Source of the DNA: a virus
Virus record (IMG/VR): IMGVR_UViG_3300031521_000253
Location: 1-31,381 of that record
Direction: 5' to 3' (one strand)
DNA length: 31,381 nt
Shown: positions 3,724 through 23,721 of the stretch, in pieces
Layout: the number at the start of each line of letters is the position of its first letter
Position numbering within the stretch: the stretch's first letter is position 1
Notes under the pieces: model-generated
What the model was told of the DNA's origin: nothing
The model's input: only the letters and a program-made list of their open reading frames with translations
Databases searched by the model: none
Translations under genes and position numbers: made by a program

Positions 3724-3770
3724 AATACGAACTGTAGAGGGTCTGTTGTTCCCTTGCTACAGTTCGTATT
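3724..3770 (-). promoter_or_regulatory. 14-bp inverted repeat at promoter start site, hairpin with U-run
   Basis: AATACGAACTGTAG (3724-3737) is exactly inverted at 3757-3770, with a 19-base loop holding a nested GGG/CCC pair. In transcript sense the first arm overlaps the -10 box and start point and the second arm is followed by TTTTTAATAAGG. It may be a repressor operator pair about three helical turns apart, or an attenuator hairpin that would release a roughly 50-base RNA. Both readings fit; the sequence alone does not decide. Confidence 0.7.
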
Positions 3771-3796
3771 ATAGGTTATTTTTTCCTTCTTGTCAA
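3768..3796 (-). promoter_or_regulatory. consensus sigma-A promoter (TTGACA-N17-TATAAT)
   Basis: A perfect -35 box (3791-3796) and a perfect -10 box (3768-3773) are separated by 17 bases on the minus strand. The -35 box contains the TGA stop of the dpdA-like gene. It should be read by the host housekeeping RNA polymerase without phage factors and drives the genes from 3703 leftward to SPFH and perhaps rtcB. Confidence 0.9.
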
Positions 3797-5763
3797 TCCT
3801 TTTTTTCTGGGGTTATGTCTATAGTCTCCTCTTCACTGTTTGCTTCCTTATTAGTATTAAAGGACATTCCCCCAAACAAACGGCTCAATATTCCCCCTTG
3901 ATCCCCATTTCCCCTGACTTCCTCTATAGTTTCGACAGTTCCGTTCTCATCCACAACCACTTTTCGCTGTGCAACTATCTGTTTTCCCATAGTTTCCATC
4001 TGTGTCATCATCTGCAAATACTTCATATTGGTATCCATTAAGGAAGTAACATTAGCATCCACCATTCCTCCATCCATCATCTCGAACATCATCATTCTTT
4101 GAAGTCGTTCTAAGTTTCCTTCTACTATAGAATGCATGGCATCCATAAGATCATCGCGGTTACGTGTGCTGAAACGTTTGAACATCTTATTGTAAGCACA
4201 TACATATCCTGCTTGATAGTCAGGGCAGTCTCCCGATTTATAACAGGTAGAACAAGATAGTTGATACATACTATCAGAGTATATCTTCTTAGGTTTCCTA
4301 ACGTGCTTCTGTCCCTTTAGGAACTTCCCCTTCTCATCTCTGACAACTACTATTCCCTGCTTCCTTAATTCATCATCATAAGCATCTACTTCAGGCATAT
4401 CACTTCCCTGTCCCAGTAATCCTGCTAAGTAAGAATCACAATCTTTCTTTGAAAGGTCTAATGCAATAGTCTGCTCCTCTTCGATGTATTGTTCCCTTTC
4501 CTTCCCTTTGATTTTAGTAAGGTCTACTTCCTCCTCAGAGAGGTTTGAGTACTCACTCCTCTTTCTGTCTGCATGATCCTTAAAACATTGTGGCAATGCT
4601 TCTAAGGCTTTCTTAGAGGTGTTCACATCTGAGACTCCGAATACATCACAAAATGCGAATAATTCCTCAGTAGTAAACATATCTAGCTTTTCCTTATCAA
4701 ATTCTATAAATGCTTTGAAAGTTCCTATTAGAGAAATTACTTCATCCATATTCCCATTAGTATCTATCCCTAGCACTTTAGCATAAGGTTTCCAATCCAC
4801 ACAATCCCCATCAAACCATTCTACAGCAGGGAGAGTTCCTCTAGGAAGTTCTTCAATATCTTCTTCCACAACTTTCACTCCCTTATTAGACAACCAATAA
4901 GATTTAGTCTTAATCCTCTTTCGTACATGTGCTTCCACTTCGAGGAAGGTGAGAACATTGATACGTATAAGTTCATAAGGTTCTTCTCTTTCGGCTAATG
5001 CCCAATTCGCTCCAAGCTTGATAAGTTTATTCTTAAACTGACGTTTCCACTTATCCTTTTTGAGACGTTTCATACATCTCCCATCAAAATAGTTTATCTC
5101 CCCATATTGTGTTCCTATTAGCCAAGTAGTGGAATCTACACTTCTCCAAGGGTAGGAACACATCATGTCGAATCCCGTGACTGCAAATCCATGAACTAAT
5201 GTAAGGTGCTTCTTAGCTAGGTTAAACATTGTAGATAGTTTCTTATCATCATACTCTGCTTCCTTTTCATTTAAGGATATTCCAACATAGTCATATTTAT
5301 TACACATTGTTTCCCAGTCTTTTAGGTCACGGCAAGCGTGCCATACATAAATAACAGTGACTCCCTGCTCCTCTAATGGTTTGAAGTATTCCTCTCTCCA
5401 ACGGTTAACAGTGTCCACTCCTACTAATCCCTCAATATCTAACTCGGCAATAGCATATACATGATCCTTATTCTCTAATGCCCACTTGGTATACTTATCT
5501 AAATACTTCTCCCAGTATTCGATAGGCTTATTTTCGTACTCTTCCTTATTCATAAAAGTATGTGCTCCTGAGTCTACTATAAGCTGTAGATTAGGACATA
5601 CTTCTAGTAATCCTTGTATAAACTTCTTCCCTTTCCTTTGAAGGTAATGAAAGGACATCAGCATTGTGCTAGTCTCTTTAGCTACAATGTTAAAGTACTT
5701 GTCACTTTCAACTCCTGAGAAGAATATACTAACTTCACTCTTCCTTATATCATTAATATTCAC
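3793..5763 (-). CDS. dpdA: DpdA-like TGT-family transglycosylase with long C-terminal extension
   Basis: A 656-residue protein whose first 300 residues match the tRNA-guanine transglycosylase fold as used by phage DpdA enzymes, which exchange guanine in DNA for a 7-deazaguanine. Visible: VDSGAHTF (63-70; D64 equals the catalytic TGT Asp), AIAELDIEG (104-112), LVHGFAVTG (189-197) and SVDSTTW (208-214; D210 as likely nucleophile). Residues about 300-656 are extra: charged helices, a cysteine cluster CSTC-x5-C-x8-C (504-522), a Met-rich helical stretch (540-595) and an acidic tail. Start is GTG, overlapping the radical SAM stop (GTGA). Co-location with folE and queD/E/C supports DNA modification rather than tRNA queuosine. 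Confidence 0.85.
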   Translation of the reverse strand: MNINDIRKSEVSIFFSGVESDKYFNIVAKETSTMLMSFHYLQRKGKKFIQGLLEVCPNLQLIVDSGAHTFMNKEEYENKPIEYWEKYLDKYTKWALENKDHVYAIAELDIEGLVGVDTVNRWREEYFKPLEEQGVTVIYVWHACRDLKDWETMCNKYDYVGISLNEKEAEYDDKKLSTMFNLAKKHLTLVHGFAVTGFDMMCSYPWRSVDSTTWLIGTQYGEINYFDGRCMKRLKKDKWKRQFKNKLIKLGANWALAEREEPYELIRINVLTFLEVEAHVRKRIKTKSYWLSNKGVKVVEEDIEELPRGTLPAVEWFDGDCVDWKPYAKVLGIDTNGNMDEVISLIGTFKAFIEFDKEKLDMFTTEELFAFCDVFGVSDVNTSKKALEALPQCFKDHADRKRSEYSNLSEEEVDLTKIKGKEREQYIEEEQTIALDLSKKDCDSYLAGLLGQGSDMPEVDAYDDELRKQGIVVVRDEKGKFLKGQKHVRKPKKIYSDSMYQLSCSTCYKSGDCPDYQAGYVCAYNKMFKRFSTRNRDDLMDAMHSIVEGNLERLQRMMMFEMMDGGMVDANVTSLMDTNMKYLQMMTQMETMGKQIVAQRKVVVDENGTVETIEEVRGNGDQGGILSRLFGGMSFNTNKEANSEEETIDITPEKKD

Positions 5764-6716
5764 ATTTCCACCCCATCTTTATAACAGAAATTCATAAGGG
5801 GGCATAAATCTCTACAGTAGCTACATTGGTTATTCTCTTTGCACACTGTAGCAAATTCACGATTCCTTTCTCTTGATCTATCCCCTGCTTCTAACAACTC
5901 TTCCACATCATCTAACACTATATTGCCCGAACTTCTTCTATCATACCCATCACTATACTCAAATCCGCATCCTAAAACTTCTCCGTCGGGAGTTATAACA
6001 ATTCTATTCACAAACTTCTCACAACTAAACTCAACTCTCAAATGTACATTAGTTATGAAGTCAAATTTCTCACTCTTTATTGCTTCAGCATATCCTCCCT
6101 TAACATCCACGGTGAAATTTCCCCATAATACTTCATGCTCTAAAAATCTCAATGTTTCAATTAATTGTAAAGGAGAAAGTATTAACTCTTTAGGAGTCTT
6201 TCCTAAAGCAAGAACAGGAATTATCCAGAAATCATTTACTCCGACTTCTTGTAATTTTTGAATGTTAGGTATAAGATTTTTATAGTTTAAAGAGGTGAGA
6301 GTAAGGTAAGCAGTCACATGGACACCTAAGTCAGTAAGCATCTTTATATTGTTTATCTCCTGAAAAGGACGTACTGACTCATCCCCCATAAAGGAATCAA
6401 TAGAAACTCCCACATCTGTAAGATTAGGGTACTGAGTGGGTGCAAGGTATCTAATATATGTTGGAATATTAACTCCATTAGTGACTAAACTAAATGTTTT
6501 GTCAGAAGGAATAAAATATATAAGTGAAAATATCTTAGAATCAAGCAACGGTTCTTTCCCCGCAAAGTGGTAATGATCGACATAAGGTGCAAGTTTTCTT
6601 ATAGTTTCTACCCATTCAATAACTGATAATGGAGTACCTACTAGTTTAGTATTCCCTTGGAAGCAATGCTTACAGCTAAGATTGCATATGTTATTAATAA
6701 TTAGTTCAGCTTGCAT
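5760..6716 (-). CDS. radical SAM protein with SPASM-like C-terminus
   Basis: A 318-residue radical SAM enzyme. The cluster motif CNLSCKHC (C11, C15, C18) is canonical CxxxCxxC; HFAGKEPLL (about 51-59) matches the GGEP region that contacts SAM, and ITPDGEVLGC (about 247-256) is a typical SPASM-type segment. The C-terminus carries C292, C298, C301, C305 and C311, enough for an auxiliary Fe-S cluster. It overlaps folE (TAATG) upstream and the dpdA-like gene (GTGA) downstream, so the three are one unit. It is not QueE, which is encoded separately at 8984-9622. The likely role is to modify the 7-deazaguanine base before or after insertion; the reaction is unknown. Confidence 0.88.
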   Translation of the reverse strand: MQAELIINNICNLSCKHCFQGNTKLVGTPLSVIEWVETIRKLAPYVDHYHFAGKEPLLDSKIFSLIYFIPSDKTFSLVTNGVNIPTYIRYLAPTQYPNLTDVGVSIDSFMGDESVRPFQEINNIKMLTDLGVHVTAYLTLTSLNYKNLIPNIQKLQEVGVNDFWIIPVLALGKTPKELILSPLQLIETLRFLEHEVLWGNFTVDVKGGYAEAIKSEKFDFITNVHLRVEFSCEKFVNRIVITPDGEVLGCGFEYSDGYDRRSSGNIVLDDVEELLEAGDRSRERNREFATVCKENNQCSYCRDLCPLMNFCYKDGVEM

Positions 6717-7282
6717 TATCTAATCAACTCCTTAAATGTTAGTAAATGATTAAGATTGGAAGAATGTGTAGTAATCATGGTACTATTTCGAGACTCTATC
6801 CCTCTACATGCAACACAGGTATGTAGGGATTCCACTATAACTACTACAGTCTTGGCATCTAACTCTTCTTGCAGGAAGTGCTGAATATCACTACCAAATC
6901 TCTCCTGTACTTGTGGTCTTTTACTAAAGTAATCAACTACTCTATCCAGTTTACTTATCCCGCAAATTACATCTCTTGGAATATATCCTATATGAACTTT
7001 TCCAAAGAAGGGCATGAAATGGTGCTGACACATAGAACTAAACTCTATATCCTTCTTTATAACCCAATTGCTATTTTCGTCCTCATTAGGAAACACAGTG
7101 AATTCAAAATCCATTTCCCCCAATCCACTAAATCTTTCTAACCACATCTTAACAATCCTCTTAGGTGTATTTAAGTTATGACTATCCTTTGCCTTAAACT
7201 TAGGGTATAGCACACTCAATAAATACATTGCCCTTTCAATATTCTGTTCCATTTCTTTTGTAATATCTTCTTTAATTGACAT
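6716..7282 (-). CDS. folE: GTP cyclohydrolase I (FolE)
   Basis: A 188-residue GTP cyclohydrolase I, the first step from GTP to dihydroneopterin triphosphate, which feeds QueD. Family features: SSMCQHHFMPFFGKVHIGYIP (start at 82; zinc ligand C85, with H87/H88), GISKLDRVVDYFSKRPQVQER (start at 108) and HTC (154-156, second zinc Cys C156). Length is normal for the family. Its substrate use here is almost certainly 7-deazaguanine synthesis, given neighbours. The ATG follows GGGGG at 7 bases; an extended -10 promoter and a strong terminator separate it from the queC operon upstream. Confidence 0.95.
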   Translation of the reverse strand: MSIKEDITKEMEQNIERAMYLLSVLYPKFKAKDSHNLNTPKRIVKMWLERFSGLGEMDFEFTVFPNEDENSNWVIKKDIEFSSMCQHHFMPFFGKVHIGYIPRDVICGISKLDRVVDYFSKRPQVQERFGSDIQHFLQEELDAKTVVVIVESLHTCVACRGIESRNSTMITTHSSNLNHLLTFKELIR

Positions 7283-7305: not shown

Positions 7306-7314
7306 AGTATAGCA
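7306..7314 (-). promoter_or_regulatory. extended -10 promoter candidate for folE-radical SAM-dpdA
   Basis: TGCTATACT (extended -10, TGn plus a 5/6 TATAAT match) lies between the terminator at 7328-7353 and the folE start, about 25 bases ahead of the ATG. No good -35 box is visible, as is allowed for extended -10 promoters. Confidence 0.55.
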
Positions 7315-7327
7315 TAAGAAACTGAAA

Positions 7328-7353
7328 AAGACCACTAAATTAATAGTGGTCTT
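7328..7353 (-). terminator. strong intrinsic terminator
   Basis: A 10-bp perfect stem (AAGACCACTA / TAGTGGTCTT) with a 6-base loop is followed by TTTCAGTTTC, and the stem end adds more T. It sits 14 bases past the stop of the small basic protein gene and ends that transcript before folE. Confidence 0.85.
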
Positions 7354-7691: not shown

Positions 7692-8324
7692 TCAAAATAA
7701 TCTTTTAACTTTTTCTGCAAAGGAATCAGATTTAGCAAATTCTTCTCTAAGTAAACAGTTTGCACATATTCCACATTCCTCTGCTTTTCCGCTACTCATA
7801 TCAGGGAAGTTACAACTCCATGTATCAGATAACTTAACTCCTAACCATTTAGCTTGTGCATATACTTCCTGCTTACTCTTATCTATAAAAGGTGCTTCTA
7901 ATTCCATTCCATACATTCCATTAATAAGAGCATCATAATCTCTCACAAATTTCTTAGTAGCATCGGGGAAGTTAATAGGACATCCCTCAGAAGATATTAA
8001 TCCCACATATATCTTTTTAATTCCATTCATCTCTGCATAGCGGGTAGCATAGGATAAGAAGATAAGGTTACGTGCGGGGTTATAACTCTCAGAATCAGCA
8101 TATAAATCTTGTGGATCAATATTAAGATGATCTAAGAAAGCATTGTGACCTTTCTTCCTCAAATTTTGAATGCATCTTATAGCATAATCCTCTTCAGGCT
8201 GTTCAAATTCCTGCCCATAATGAAAGAATAGTCCACAGACTTCTTCATTATTAACGTCTGCTACATAATGAGCAAGGGTCACACTATCTAGTCCACCACT
8301 CAACAACACTATTGCTTTTTCCAC
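7692..8324 (-). CDS. queC: 7-cyano-7-deazaguanine synthase (QueC)
   Basis: A 210-residue QueC that turns 7-carboxy-7-deazaguanine into preQ0 using ATP and ammonia. The N-type ATP pyrophosphatase loop is LSGGLDSVT (8-16), YNPARNLIFLSYA (81-93) is the characteristic QueC segment, and the zinc site is C171, C184, C187 and C190 (CGICANCLLRE). The start is GTG with GGAGG 8 bases upstream; no other start is plausible. It is the last biosynthetic gene of the queD-queE-hyp-HAD-queC operon. No amidotransferase domain that would point to an archaeosine-type product is attached. Confidence 0.96.
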   Translation of the reverse strand: MEKAIVLLSGGLDSVTLAHYVADVNNEEVCGLFFHYGQEFEQPEEDYAIRCIQNLRKKGHNAFLDHLNIDPQDLYADSESYNPARNLIFLSYATRYAEMNGIKKIYVGLISSEGCPINFPDATKKFVRDYDALINGMYGMELEAPFIDKSKQEVYAQAKWLGVKLSDTWSCNFPDMSSGKAEECGICANCLLREEFAKSDSFAEKVKRLF

Positions 8325-8336
8325 AATTAATTCCTC

Positions 8337-8708
8337 CTAAAAATCATCTACGTTTATAGCACGATCATCTAAGTAATGATGTGCAAATATCTTTGCTCCG
8401 CATCTCCCATTCTCAGCAGATAATATCTGTCTGATTTCGTCAACACATTCAAATGATTCTTTAATCCAAGGTGCTTGATCATTGACTGCATCGGGAACTA
8501 GACCATACTTCTTACACCATTTTAAAGCTTGTTCAAGAGTGTCTAACTCACGACAAGTCCAGAGGATGATAAAAGTTCCTCTACGTTGTAGGTCAATTAC
8601 TTTCTCAATTATGTCAAGTTTAGGTTCTCCAATATTGGGGAATGCGTTTTTGCAAAGTGTCCCATCAAAATCTACTGCCATTATTATTTTAGTTGAGCAA
8701 TCCGCCAT
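8337..8708 (-). CDS. HAD-superfamily phosphatase-like protein
   Basis: A 123-residue compact HAD-like protein. AVDFDGTL (about 11-18) is motif I with the nucleophile Asp, TFIILWTCRE (about 45-54) matches motif II, and YLDDRAI (near 113-119) is the acidic motif IV. No large cap domain. The start at 8708 has GGGAGG about 8 bases upstream; the frame extends further but through that site. It overlaps the previous gene by 20 bases and lies between queE and queC. Similar small HADs are common in phages and their substrates are mostly unknown; a nucleotide phosphatase role in base supply is possible. Confidence 0.82.
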   Translation of the reverse strand: MADCSTKIIMAVDFDGTLCKNAFPNIGEPKLDIIEKVIDLQRRGTFIILWTCRELDTLEQALKWCKKYGLVPDAVNDQAPWIKESFECVDEIRQILSAENGRCGAKIFAHHYLDDRAINVDDF

Positions 8709-8967
8709 TGTCATATCCTCCCTGTATTTTTTCTTCCTCATAGTCAAAGAATACAATCCCCTTGATTCCTATACTATTTATAAATTCAGTAGTAAATTCC
8801 TGTGCAACTAAGTAGAAGCATTCACTTAAAGGATCTTCTGCTTTAGAAGTAGTCACCATATTCAAGGCTATCTGTTCGGAATCTTCTTTGCTTTCTGCAA
8901 CGAGTAGCGTAGTGGCTATTTCTCTTTTATCCTCTGTAGAGAATACTATAAGGTAAGGGTATAACAT
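8689..8967 (-). CDS. hypothetical protein, 92 aa
   Basis: Unrecognised acidic protein with alternating beta/alpha character (YPYLIVFSTEDKREIATTLLVA at the start; a pattern seen in small phage proteins that resemble a ferredoxin-like fold). It sits between queE and the HAD gene in the queD-to-queC operon, with GGAGG at 9 bases ahead of the ATG and a 20-base overlap with the HAD gene. Its retention within the pathway operon suggests, but does not show, a related function. Confidence 0.75.
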   Translation of the reverse strand: MLYPYLIVFSTEDKREIATTLLVAESKEDSEQIALNMVTTSKAEDPLSECFYLVAQEFTTEFINSIGIKGIVFFDYEEEKIQGGYDNGGLLN

Positions 8968-8983
8968 AAGTATATTCCTCCTA

Positions 8984-9622
8984 TTATTTTAATCCTATTA
9001 CTTTATGAATTTGTATCCCAAGTCTCACATTAGGAAGCTTATCTCCCTCAATCCAATCTGCTAATTCCCTAGCATTACTTCCCCCGCTCTCATTAAAGCA
9101 AGGTGAGAATATAATCTGAGCAATGGTAGGATATTGCTTTATAACTCCTTTTGCAAAGAGATAATCGGTAAAGTCCGCGATCACAAACTTAACTTCATCT
9201 TTAGCTAATAGGTTTCCTAAATTAGCGTAGCAATTATTCCCCGCCATATTAGATGAAGGACACTTAACATCCATACAGTAGTAGAAACTCCTGTTGTAGT
9301 TATCTTTATCGATGGGAATACTCCCGTTAGTTTCTATATCAACTACATACTGTCTTTCTACAAGTGCATATATCAATGGATATACTTCATCCTGTATCAA
9401 TGGTTCTCCTCCTGTTAAACAAATATTCTTATTCCCTAACTTTCCTACGGTATTGAGTATCATATCAATACCAGCTTTACTCCGTTTTCCCTCCCTCGCA
9501 TACTGAGTATCACAATATGAGCAATACAGATTGCATCGGAAAAGACGGATGAAGGTGGTAGGAACTCCTGTGAATTTTCCTTCTCCTTGGAGAGAAGAGA
9601 ATATCTCACTTACTGATAACAT
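8984..9622 (-). CDS. queE: 7-carboxy-7-deazaguanine synthase (QueE)
   Basis: A 212-residue radical SAM enzyme converting carboxy-tetrahydropterin to 7-carboxy-7-deazaguanine. SEIFSSLQGEGKFTGVPTTF (start at 5) is the QueE signature, CNLYCSYC (about 30-37) is the Fe-S motif and ICLTGGEPL (about 67-75) binds SAM. ETNGS follows as in the family. I prefer the ATG at 9622, preceded by AGAGAGG, because the resulting N-terminus matches QueE; the frame also has an ATG at 9655 inside queD with a poor binding site. Second gene of the operon after queD. Confidence 0.95.
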   Translation of the reverse strand: MLSVSEIFSSLQGEGKFTGVPTTFIRLFRCNLYCSYCDTQYAREGKRSKAGIDMILNTVGKLGNKNICLTGGEPLIQDEVYPLIYALVERQYVVDIETNGSIPIDKDNYNRSFYYCMDVKCPSSNMAGNNCYANLGNLLAKDEVKFVIADFTDYLFAKGVIKQYPTIAQIIFSPCFNESGGSNARELADWIEGDKLPNVRLGIQIHKVIGLK

Positions 9623-9638
9623 TTCATCATCCCTCTCT

Positions 9639-10019
9639 TTAAATTTCTTCACCATTGTACTCTACATAACATTCGGGATAATTTTCCCATAACTTTACTG
9701 ATTGAAGGTACAATCCTAAATACTCATCATCTAGTTCGGACTGTAACTGGGTAAATATCCATACTGCAAGATTTTCTGCTGTGGGGTTAAAAGGCAGTAC
9801 TTCATTAAGAAACTTATGATCTAACTTACTAACTATAAGGTCATTTATTAAAGACTTCATAACTTTAAAATCTATGGCGATCCCCATACTATCCAATCCA
9901 TTACGTGCAACTGTTACACTAAATCGCCAAGAATGTCCATGAGTATTTCCGCAATCCCCCTTGTATCCTTCGATAAAGTGGGCTGAATCAAACTTAAATT
10001 CTCTTGTTACATATATCAT
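9639..10019 (-). CDS. queD: 6-carboxy-tetrahydropterin synthase (QueD)
   Basis: A 126-residue QueD/PTPS-family enzyme, making 6-carboxy-5,6,7,8-tetrahydropterin from the FolE product. Zinc ligands H14, H27 and H29 lie in FDSAHF and GNTHGHSW, with catalytic C23 two residues ahead of GNTHG; LDHKFLN and PTAENLA are the family's later motifs, and the Glu in WENYPECYVEY closes the site. The start is the ATG at 10019 (AAGGAG 7 bases upstream); a GTG two codons earlier is too near the binding site. The gene starts just beyond the terminator-like hairpin of the SpoVS-like gene without a visible promoter. Confidence 0.95.
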   Translation of the reverse strand: MIYVTREFKFDSAHFIEGYKGDCGNTHGHSWRFSVTVARNGLDSMGIAIDFKVMKSLINDLIVSKLDHKFLNEVLPFNPTAENLAVWIFTQLQSELDDEYLGLYLQSVKLWENYPECYVEYNGEEI

Positions 10020-10042
10020 TTCCACACTCCTTATAAAGAAAA

Positions 10043-10065: not shown

Positions 10066-10347
10066 TTACTTCAGTTCAACTATGAAACGAATGATTGTCT
10101 TCTCTTCTCCATTGATCTGAGCAACTTTAAATCCCATACGACTATAGACAGCTTGCCCATAGTTTCCGAGGTGTCCTGAACTAATGGCAATTGCTTTGAC
10201 AGCTTGATTGACTGCTCCCGCTCCAATAGCTAGGATTTCTACGGGACTTGCGGGGGCATCTCCATCACCTTTTAATGCATGAGAGATACTTCCTGCTACT
10301 TTCTTAACAGGTGAATCGGCTTTTACTTTTAGAGTTACAAATTCCAT
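10066..10347 (-). CDS. SpoVS-like (Alba-fold) protein
   Basis: A 93-residue homologue of stage V sporulation protein S. The match is clear: VKKVAGSISHAL (14-25), EILAIGAGAVNQAVKAIAISSGHL (start 38) and a closing NGEEKTIIRFIVELK (79-93), as in SpoVS where GAGALNQAVKA and GEERTAIKLIVEPR occupy the same places. SpoVS-type proteins are small Alba-like nucleic acid binders of sporulating Bacillota and Deinococcus-Thermus. The ATG has AAGGAGG at 9 bases; the gene overlaps the signal peptidase stop by 13 bases and ends in a strong terminator. Function in infection could be RNA/DNA binding or interference with sporulation. Confidence 0.9.
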   Translation of the reverse strand: MEFVTLKVKADSPVKKVAGSISHALKGDGDAPASPVEILAIGAGAVNQAVKAIAISSGHLGNYGQAVYSRMGFKVAQINGEEKTIIRFIVELK

Positions 10348-10712
10348 TTTCTTATTTCCTCCTTAAATTTTACTACTTGTCCTATCACTTTTGATGGATC
10401 AATAAATCCGAAGCTTCTACTATCAATTGAGTCCTCTAAATTATCCCCTACAAAGAATAAAGATAACTTTCCATCTGTGGGGGAAACTGCAATATAGTGC
10501 AGTCTTTTCAAGCAAGGTATTCCTAACGGACTATCAAATACATATACATTATCAACTGTCAGTGTTGCGGATTTCTTTACCAGAATCCACTGTCCTGAGT
10601 AGAATGTAGGATACATACTTGAACCTTCAACTTGATTGATAGAATACTTACGTACTAAATACAGAATACCTGAAATCAAAAGTAATGTCAAGATAATAGT
10701 TGTAGCTGTCAT
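10335..10712 (-). CDS. signal peptidase I (S26 family)
   Basis: A 125-residue minimal type I signal peptidase. One N-terminal membrane anchor (about residues 4-20) is followed by EGSSMYPTF (29-37, catalytic S32), CLKRLHY (67-73, general base K69) and FVGDNLEDSIDSRSFGFI (87-104, the box with GDN and DSR). All catalytic elements are present. It is shorter than cellular enzymes. The ATG at 10712 shares bases with the stop of the preceding 30-residue membrane peptide (TGATG), and its GGAGG lies inside that peptide's gene. A phage-coded Lep enzyme is uncommon; its substrate could be a phage-coded exported protein. Confidence 0.88.
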   Translation of the reverse strand: MTATTIILTLLLISGILYLVRKYSINQVEGSSMYPTFYSGQWILVKKSATLTVDNVYVFDSPLGIPCLKRLHYIAVSPTDGKLSLFFVGDNLEDSIDSRSFGFIDPSKVIGQVVKFKEEIRKWNL

Positions 10713-10804
10713 CACCAATCTCTCCTCCCGAAGTAAACACAAAACATGAAAAATGTAAGGAATAATAAATCTATATGAGTATTAGCAAAGTCCCAAAAAG
10801 TCAT
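10712..10804 (-). CDS. 30-aa membrane micro-protein coupled to the signal peptidase
   Basis: The frame begins at an ATG one base after the previous gene's stop, with GAGGAGG 8-13 bases upstream inside that gene, and ends in TGA overlapping the signal peptidase ATG (TGATG). The product MTFWDFANTHIDLL plus a hydrophobic FLTFFMFCVYF span (about residues 15-25) and a basic GRRDW tail fits a one-span membrane peptide. Exact filling of the gap and coupling on both sides make it credible despite its length. It may regulate or anchor the signal peptidase; that is inference. Confidence 0.65.
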   Translation of the reverse strand: MTFWDFANTHIDLLFLTFFMFCVYFGRRDW

Positions 10805-23080: not shown

Positions 23081-23155
23081 TGGTAGTCTCAAATGGAATT
23101 GAACCAATATCAAAGCCTTATAAGGACTCTGCACTAACCATTATGCTATGAGACT
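23081..23155 (-). tRNA. tRNA-Ile (UAU)
   Basis: Acceptor AGTCTCA/TGAGACT, discriminator A and encoded CCA. Anticodon loop CTTATAA gives UAU (codon AUA). D arm GCA...TGC and T arm with TTCAATT are present. One T:T mismatch in the T stem. AUA is rarely used by many Firmicutes hosts but common in AT-rich phage genes. Confidence 0.85.
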
Positions 23156-23156
23156 A

Positions 23157-23232
23157 TGGCAGGGATAACTGGACTCGAACCAGTGCATCGCAGATTAACA
23201 GTCTGCTATCTTACCAACTTGACTATATCCCT
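23157..23232 (-). tRNA. tRNA-Asn (GUU)
   Basis: Acceptor AGGGATA/TATCCCT, discriminator G, encoded CCA, anticodon stem GCAGA/TCTGC around loop CTGTTAA (GUU). T arm ACTGG-TTCGAGT-CCAGT is perfect. A cloverleaf without mismatches in the main stems. It carries a GUN anticodon, the substrate class for queuosine in tRNAs. Confidence 0.93.
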
Positions 23233-23235
23233 GTT

Positions 23236-23310
23236 TGGCAGTCCGTAGGAGAATTGAACTCCTATCTCTTGATTTACAATCAAGAATAATGACCATTATA
23301 CGAACGGACT
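23236..23310 (-). tRNA. tRNA with GUA anticodon in a class I body (Asp-like body)
   Basis: Acceptor AGTCCGT/ACGGACT, G73, encoded CCA, anticodon stem CTTGA/TCAAG with loop TTGTAAA (GUA, Tyr), T stem AGGAG/CTCCT. It has a short 4-base variable region, whereas bacterial tRNA-Tyr has a long one, and G73 and the GTCCG acceptor core resemble tRNA-Asp. A true class II tRNA-Tyr(GUA) is present at 23469-23554, so this one's charging identity is doubtful. Confidence 0.78.
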
Positions 23311-23313
23311 AAT

Positions 23314-23387
23314 TGGTGGGGACACTAAGATTTGAACTTAGGATCGCAGAATCAAAGTCTGCTGTGTTACCATTACACTATGTCCCT
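23314..23387 (-). tRNA. tRNA-Gln (UUG)
   Basis: Acceptor AGGGACA/TGTCCCC with an open first pair, as is usual for Gln tRNAs; discriminator A and encoded CCA. Anticodon loop CTTTGAT gives UUG. The D stem GTGT/ACAC, anticodon stem GCAGA/TCTGC and T stem CTAAG/CTTAG are perfect. Confidence 0.9.
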
Positions 23388-23390
23388 ATT

Positions 23391-23465
23391 TGGCGAGAAA
23401 GGTAAGAATCGAACTCACGACATTCTGTTTTGGAGACAGACGTTCTTCCACTGAACTACTTTCCC
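23391..23465 (-). tRNA. tRNA-Trp (CCA)
   Basis: Acceptor GGGAAAG/CTTTCTC (one G:U), discriminator G and encoded CCA. Anticodon stem TCTGT/ACAGA with loop CTCCAAA gives the Trp anticodon CCA. T stem GTGAG/CTTAC has one G:U. D stem GTTC/GAAC. Confidence 0.92.
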
Positions 23466-23468
23466 TTA

Positions 23469-23554
23469 TGGTGTGCGAGGTAGGAGTCGAACCTACGGTG
23501 TTTCTCTGTGAGGGATTTACAATCCCCTGTCTTCGCCACTAGACACACTCACAC
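23469..23554 (-). tRNA. tRNA-Tyr (GUA), class II
   Basis: Acceptor GTGTGAG/CTCGCAC, discriminator A, encoded CCA, D stem TGTC/GACA. Anticodon stem GGGGA/TCCCT around TTGTAAA (GUA) and a long variable arm of about 14 bases, as normal for bacterial tRNA-Tyr. T stem GTAGG/CCTAC. Confidence 0.92.
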
Positions 23555-23561
23555 ATAAAAT

Positions 23562-23635
23562 TGGAAGCGGGTGCAAGAGTTGAACTTGCTGTTTCTAGGT
23601 TATGAGCCTAGCGTGATCCGTGTCACTCCCCCGCA
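23562..23635 (-). tRNA. tRNA-Met-type (CAU)
   Basis: Anticodon stem CTAGG/CCTAG with loop CTCATAA (CAU), T stem GCAAG/CTTGC, encoded CCA. The acceptor TGCGGGG/ACCCGCT has an unpaired 1:72 pair (as in initiator tRNAs), a G:A pair at 7:66 and U73. It could be initiator, elongator or (if lysidine-modified) Ile2; the anticodon stem lacks the three G:C pairs of initiators. Confidence 0.78.
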
Positions 23636-23646
23636 ATGTTAATTTT

Positions 23647-23721
23647 TGGAGCGAATGAGGGAAGTCGAATCCCTGTTTCCAACTTGGAAGGATGGCACAC
23701 TAACCACTGTGTTACATTCGC
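23647..23721 (-). tRNA. tRNA-Gly (UCC)
   Basis: Acceptor GCGAATG/CATTCGC, discriminator U (usual for Gly) and encoded CCA. Anticodon loop CTTCCAA gives UCC (GGA codons). The anticodon stem CCATC/GTTGG has one T:T mismatch; T stem AGGGA/TCCCT is perfect. Confidence 0.88.

Follow-up and report, generated by a model that had tools for sequence, protein, structure and literature searches.

Why should a viral cassette predicted to place a 7-deazaguanine base in DNA encode, in addition to QueE, a second radical-SAM enzyme? The question is raised by a gene on the minus strand, at 5760-6716, of the window, i.e. the whole stretch of 31,381 nucleotides analysed here (positions 1 to 31,381 of the virus record IMGVR_UViG_3300031521_000253). 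A sequence-only reading of this DNA had taken the product for a SPASM-type enzyme fused by overlap to folE and dpdA and involved in making or altering the inserted base. The frame starts with ATG, encodes 318 aa and has no internal stops; the protein carries the motif CX3CX2C (C11/C15/C18), exceeds the Pfam cut-off for Radical_SAM (PF04055; E 1e-11, 45.8 bits versus 29.5) and has fold matches to radical-SAM structures, which places it in that superfamily. Because a full frame matches a curated superfamily, has full-length homologues and lies in a confirmed cassette, the gene is not due to chance and, as had been claimed, is real.

The minus strand carries, in 5'→3' order, queD (9639-10025; 6-carboxytetrahydropterin synthase, TIGR03367 9.1e-28, above the cut-off), queE (8984-9655; 7-carboxy-7-deazaguanine synthase, the ordinary radical-SAM enzyme of the pathway, TIGR04349 1.7e-54, phrog_2076 1.8e-42), an ORF, a HAD-like ORF (8337-8756), queC (7692-8324; 7-cyano-7-deazaguanine synthase of 210 aa with a GTG start, PF06508 4.3e-34), a small basic ORF, folE (6716-7282; GTP cyclohydrolase I of 188 aa, PF01227 1e-48), the radical-SAM gene and dpdA (3793-5763; DpdA-like DNA-guanine transglycosylase of 656 aa with a GTG start, phrog_887 9e-82). 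All the genes of preQ0 synthesis—folE, queD, queE and queC—thus accompany dpdA in the window, as in other DpdA systems. The radical-SAM protein is distinct from QueE, as had been stated, the latter being encoded separately and its models being absent from the NCBIfam matches of the former. In an alignment to QueC of B. subtilis (3bl5) and to the fused QueC domains described below, both the PP-loop SGGxDS and the zinc cysteines of the window QueC are intact. The small HAD-like protein between queE and queC (phrog_24386 6.9e-27; HAD by motif, with no Pfam match) is 54% identical to that of L002 (6079-6480), and is thus found also in a relative without the radical-SAM gene.

The TAA stop of folE and the ATG of the radical-SAM gene have one base in common (TAATG, at 6716), and the TGA stop of the latter overlaps the GTG start of dpdA by 4 nt (GTGA, 5763-5760), this start being supported by L002, the DpdA of which begins at nearly the same residue. 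The shared bases reported earlier are therefore present, and the expression "fused by overlap" applies to the genes, not to the proteins, which form three separate chains in the window. A predicted intrinsic terminator upstream of folE (7328-7353, minus strand) separates folE, the radical-SAM gene and dpdA from the queC side, and a predicted extended -10 promoter element (TATGCTATACT; 7306-7316, minus strand), which has a consensus resemblance only, is situated 24-34 nt before the folE start; no further minus-strand terminator is predicted between this element and the end of dpdA. These consensus matches suggest that the three genes form one predicted transcription unit.

Several features were observed around the cassette. 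A gene for a SpoVS-family protein (10066-10347, minus strand; 6.3e-19) lies beside it, and genes of this family adjoin 7-deazaguanine cassettes in many of these phages (L002 3673-3957, L041 6305-6607, L028 4525-4941); in several of them, a small signal-peptidase S26-like gene is found just upstream of the SpoVS gene (window 10335-10742, minus strand; L002 3301-3660; L003 2368-2745). A perfect sigma-70 consensus promoter (TTGACA-17-TATAAT; 3768-3796, minus strand) is present at the dpdA stop codon. Farther away, at 23081-23721 (minus strand), eight tRNA genes are clustered in an array; GUN anticodons, which are queuosine targets in hosts, occur in three of them (one Asn GTT, two Tyr GTA).

Concerning DpdA, no Pfam family matched the window protein. 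The AF2 model of its N-terminal domain (pLDDT 86) has, however, TGT and archaeosine TGT as its best PDB matches in Foldseek, and DpdA (7ui4), which inserts preQ0 into DNA, comes 16th; together with phrog_887, this assigns the domain to the TGT fold. The C-terminal domain, which contains cysteines, is a separate gene in L004, L028 and L038-L041; in the Bacteroides-type phages this counterpart is a gene of about 250 aa adjoining dpdA (L004 6941-7696, L028 8148-8909). It may be added that dpdA is interrupted by an intein in L043 (7980-10178; Pfam intein splicing domain 5.7e-20) and, judged by length and a split TGT domain, in L028 (5947-8145).

The C-terminus of the radical-SAM protein had been described as a five-cysteine SPASM-type tail. 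Seven cysteines are counted there (232, 250, 292, 298, 301, 305 and 311), five of which (C232, C250, C292, C298 and C301) recur in the fusion protein of L003. The tail reads C232-x12-G-x4-C250 followed by C292-x5-C298-x2-C301, to be compared with the SPASM/twitch pattern CX9-15GX4C plus further cluster cysteines; the full-SPASM order CX2CX5CX3C is absent, and Pfam SPASM (PF13186) gives a borderline 21.4 bits, 0.1 bit short of its cut-off of 21.5. The conserved five-cysteine tail thus looks twitch-like and the label SPASM is generous. An unusual motif, HFAGKEP, occupies residues 50-56. The best PDB profile match is MoaA (1.3e-21), BlsE and PqqE being also among the closest, and no curated equivalog cut-off is reached. 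The conservation of the core and of the cysteine tail suggests that the protein performs genuine radical chemistry and has an auxiliary cluster, as do these three enzymes.

The predicted structure (pLDDT 68.5, pTM 0.71; of low confidence and unreliable in the tail) has SuiB, SkfB, PqqE, EpeE and viperin among its best fold matches. Peptides are frequent substrates of twitch/SPASM enzymes, and the presence of peptide maturases among the nearest folds likewise counts against a base-tailoring enzyme; the protein could accordingly stand outside base chemistry altogether, as a maturase of peptides or proteins, a viperin-like enzyme acting on nucleotides or the product of a gene that merely hitch-hikes in the operon. 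Matches to prokaryotic viperins are, however, weak and confined to residues 7-111, the viperin model NF038283 reaching 38.2 bits against a cut-off of 180 (8.9e-10, residues 7-110), which leaves the protein outside that family. Likewise, no peptide precursor gene specific to the cassettes with the radical-SAM gene was seen: the small basic ORFs near queC, considered as possible RiPP precursors, occur both with and without it and are hence non-specific. It is true that proteins can be substrates of QueC-like enzymes in CBASS (PMC11996544) and that two remote cellular relatives of the protein, detailed below, lack dpdA; given the recurrence of the domain in 7-deazaguanine cassettes of several lineages, mostly fused to QueC, a role outside base chemistry nevertheless seems improbable.

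The fusions connect the protein most directly with the pathway. In three phage lineages, a radical-SAM domain is found at the C-terminus of QueC, each time within a cassette of the order queD-queE-queC~rSAM-folE-dpdA, the fused ORFs being of 573 aa (L003), 528 aa (L031) and 617 aa (L033 and its near-copies L032 and L052). The frame in L003 occupies the place of queC; its first ~215 residues are QueC and the remainder is homologous to the radical-SAM protein of the window (BLAST 2e-25, 291 columns, 27% identity). As seen also from the reciprocal comparison, the window protein is homologous to the C-terminal halves of the fusions of L003, L031 and L033: its best matches are the fused domains (E 4e-27 and 9e-22), which outrank MoaA, viperin and further members of the superfamily. 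The homologues share only 25-31% identity, and in the tree their single clade with the window protein is neither supported nor rejected (p-AU 0.19). All of them, including the window protein, have the core CX3CX2C and GKEP in place of the common GGEP, and the fused QueC domains keep the PP-loop as well as the zinc cysteines, except the last one in L031. In addition, the best viral Foldseek match of the window model (E 1.9e-14, the next being 3.6e-8) is A0A8S5QS09, annotated as 7-cyano-7-deazaguanine synthase, the length of which (571 aa) would imply a further, putative QueC fusion.

The presence of a homologous domain on QueC in three lineages of phages with DpdA thus supports a pathway role for the enzyme, as had been postulated. 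Such fusions argue for a common free-base substrate or product of QueC and the radical-SAM domain, i.e. CDG, ADG or preQ0, and on this evidence tailoring at the QueC stage is favoured over alteration of the inserted base. The latter would mean that preQ0 or the amide is first put into DNA by DpdA and the base then modified in the strand by the radical-SAM enzyme. Since the window enzyme is a separate protein coupled to folE and dpdA, its gene overlapping dpdA and sharing a predicted transcript with it, such an order of events is conceivable, and RaSEA, an archaeal radical-SAM enzyme acting on 7-deazaguanine already in tRNA, offers a parallel. It is nonetheless rather unlikely, as the three fusions tie the domain to a free-base enzyme, no DNA-binding domain was seen and RaSEA is missing from the NCBIfam matches, listed in full, of the window, L003 and L031 proteins.

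Fusion to QueC would also suit an assistant of preQ0 formation—a redox or substrate-delivery partner of QueC—with an ordinary base, e.g. dPreQ0 or dADG, in the DNA. An FMN-reductase-like gene in L003 (7414-7971), located between folE and dpdA in the very slot of the window radical-SAM gene, gives a hint of redox support, and phages with FolE, QueD, QueE, QueC and DpdA alone contain dPreQ0 (PMC6884629). On the other hand, the QueC reaction depends on ATP and ammonia and involves no radicals, relatives as well as characterised QueC enzymes manage without such a partner, and the CX3CX2C conserved in all members suggests real radical chemistry; an assisting role hence appears unlikely.

The distribution of the gene has a bearing on the tailoring reading. 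A broader DpdA scan yielded 24 loci. In the close DpdA clade, the fused form occurs in L003, L031 and L033 (plus L032 and L052) and the stand-alone form in the window; the DpdA of L003 is about 35% identical to that of the window. Four close relatives (L002, L029, L034/L035 and L036) possess the whole cassette without the radical-SAM gene, among them L002, the nearest by DpdA (53% identical), which has the gene order of the window with folE overlapping dpdA directly. A four-row radical-SAM profile, run against all 29 records, gave strong matches only in those bearing the gene or domain, the others showing at most QueE, with L051 and the L044 contig (a viperin) as exceptions; as several of the records are fragments, the absence holds for the cassette and is less certain beyond it. 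In the DpdA tree, members with and without the radical-SAM module are sisters—the window with L002 (support 95/97) and L031 with L034 (100/99)—so that three or more gains or losses are needed to account for the supported branches, and the phages bearing it are not grouped in the QueC, DpdA or QueE trees.

Because four relatives keep the whole cassette without it, the enzyme is not needed for insertion: it is a patchily distributed, optional component of the pathway and not part of base insertion. A module that comes and goes while insertion stays is what would be expected of a tailoring, not a core, step. The overlap with dpdA, previously put forward as the key coupling, therefore loses this meaning, the closest relatives retaining the cassette without the radical-SAM gene and the domain being elsewhere attached to QueC, not to dpdA.

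The sequence-only reading had asked whether the homologues always neighbour dpdA. A viral-contig scan with the radical-SAM profile retrieved only contigs with 7-deazaguanine cassettes, a result that is partly circular, the profile having been built from such loci; the predicted-structure match to A0A8S5QS09 appears to provide a less circular support for the link to QueC. A motif-based scan of ~85,000 genomes found just two remote cellular relatives (25-27% identity), in termite-gut Bacteroidales bins, lacking both dpdA and the cysteine tail. A direct tblastn of the window protein gave no match at E 1e-5 among 50,697 phage records and otherwise only a partial match to a Streptococcus plasmid, and the first scans of viral contigs and of genomes were empty. 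The exact DNA scan for HFAGKEP hit 18 contigs, the motif being in a radical-SAM frame only on the L003 contig.

Some candidates were set aside. The radical-SAM protein of Burkholderia phage FLC6 (1e-5) is remote, and the annotated genes within 5 kb of it include no 7-deazaguanine gene; an ORF with CX3CX2C in L029 (10561-11487) seems not to encode a radical-SAM protein; and the match on the L044 contig is a true viperin, outside the family of the window protein. This viperin (L059 2003-2875, minus strand; NF038283 301 bits, cut-off 180), an antiviral enzyme here carried by a virus, is found on the phage contig IMGVR_UViG_3300006879_000036, which also has dpdA, queC, queD, queE and folE. The L051 protein is encoded in a 7-deazaguanine cassette but, with GAEP and a partial similarity of 26%, was not counted as an orthologue; in this DpdA phage, the stand-alone radical-SAM gene and an overlapping gene for a group-1 glycosyltransferase lie between folE and queC (4769-7008), and the glycosyltransferase may glycosylate a modified base. 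Finally, L057 (7006-8978) and L058 (6981-8978), both from termite-gut Bacteroidales bins, each encode a protein of ~300 aa, the N-terminus of which apparently forms membrane helices, and, after it, a tail-less GKEP radical-SAM protein, the pair in L058 being near the defence genes MzaB and MzaC; it is possibly an undescribed defence pair.

Based on the gene and its motifs, the cassette, the TGT fold of DpdA, the QueC fusions of homologous domains and the patchiness within one DpdA clade, all of them computed, we consider it somewhat probable that the window protein is an optional enzyme that tailors the substrate or product of QueC as a free base before insertion by DpdA. In the route envisaged, FolE, QueD and QueE would supply 7-carboxy-7-deazaguanine (CDG), which QueC would convert via a 7-amido intermediate to preQ0; the radical-SAM enzyme, with the aid of SAM, a 4Fe-4S cluster in its core and an auxiliary cluster at the C-terminus, would abstract hydrogen and change one of the candidate targets—the 7-carboxy-, amido- or cyano-7-deazaguanine—while still a free base; and DpdA would exchange guanine in DNA for the resulting 7-deazaguanine, other than plain preQ0. 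Its activity, its auxiliary cluster and its action at the free-base level are inferred. The location of the window gene, flanked by folE and dpdA and away from queC, speaks against free-base tailoring. More tentatively, and a little short of being probable, the base would be an undescribed 7-deazaguanine made by QueC-coupled radical chemistry on CDG, ADG or preQ0 and then inserted, with members that have an extra glycosyltransferase, flavin reductase or other gene carrying differently tailored bases.

The tailoring enzymes named in the 2019 phage survey are ArcS, QueF-L and Gat-QueC, and radical-SAM enzymes are not mentioned there by that term (PMC6884629); a term search of the 2026 QueC-family survey brought up no QueC-rSAM fusion (PMC13329287). 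None of the papers covered combines "7-cyano-7-deazaguanine synthase", "radical SAM" and "SPASM". In this literature check, which is incomplete, we found no description of a QueC-rSAM fusion or, in agreement with what had been supposed, of a radical-SAM enzyme besides QueE in the pathways to 7-deazaguanine DNA; with moderate confidence, neither seems to have been described. The phage 7-deazaguanine bases known to us owe their synthesis to amidotransferases, reductases and transferases; a QueC-coupled radical-SAM tailoring enzyme would, if true, represent a new type of chemistry in DNA-base diversity. Since 7-deazaguanine bases block restriction enzymes, a new base would be a candidate for counter-defence. 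Sister phages lacking only the radical-SAM module are natural controls and, together with the fused and stand-alone forms, make the question testable.

Compared with known systems, the MoaA/twitch-SPASM enzymes (MoaA, PqqE, BlsE, SkfB, anSME) share with the window protein the radical-SAM core and the auxiliary-cluster-like cysteine tail; the window protein differs from these enzymes by GKEP for GGEP, by its genomic partners and by the equivalog cut-offs it does not reach. Prokaryotic viperins resemble it weakly in the core domain and differ in genomic context, and we know of no viperin with a cysteine tail. RaSEA is likewise a non-QueE radical-SAM enzyme of a 7-deazaguanine pathway, but acts on tRNA in archaea and has no NCBIfam sequence match to the window protein. 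The phage systems with FolE, QueD, QueE, QueC and DpdA (PMC6884629) are like the window in having all five enzymes in one cassette and a DpdA of the TGT fold; the window adds the radical-SAM enzyme, and its DpdA is remote, with a fused C-terminal domain. The likeness extends to Gat-QueC of phage 9g, in which a second catalytic domain on QueC, the Gat domain, decides the final base, dG+, although whether the change precedes or follows insertion is not established even there (PMC6884629). The partner of QueC in the present case is a C-terminal radical-SAM domain instead of a glutamine amidotransferase and, in the window, a separate protein; tailoring of the free base by this enzyme would nevertheless be analogous to the making of dG+ by the phage Gat-QueC.
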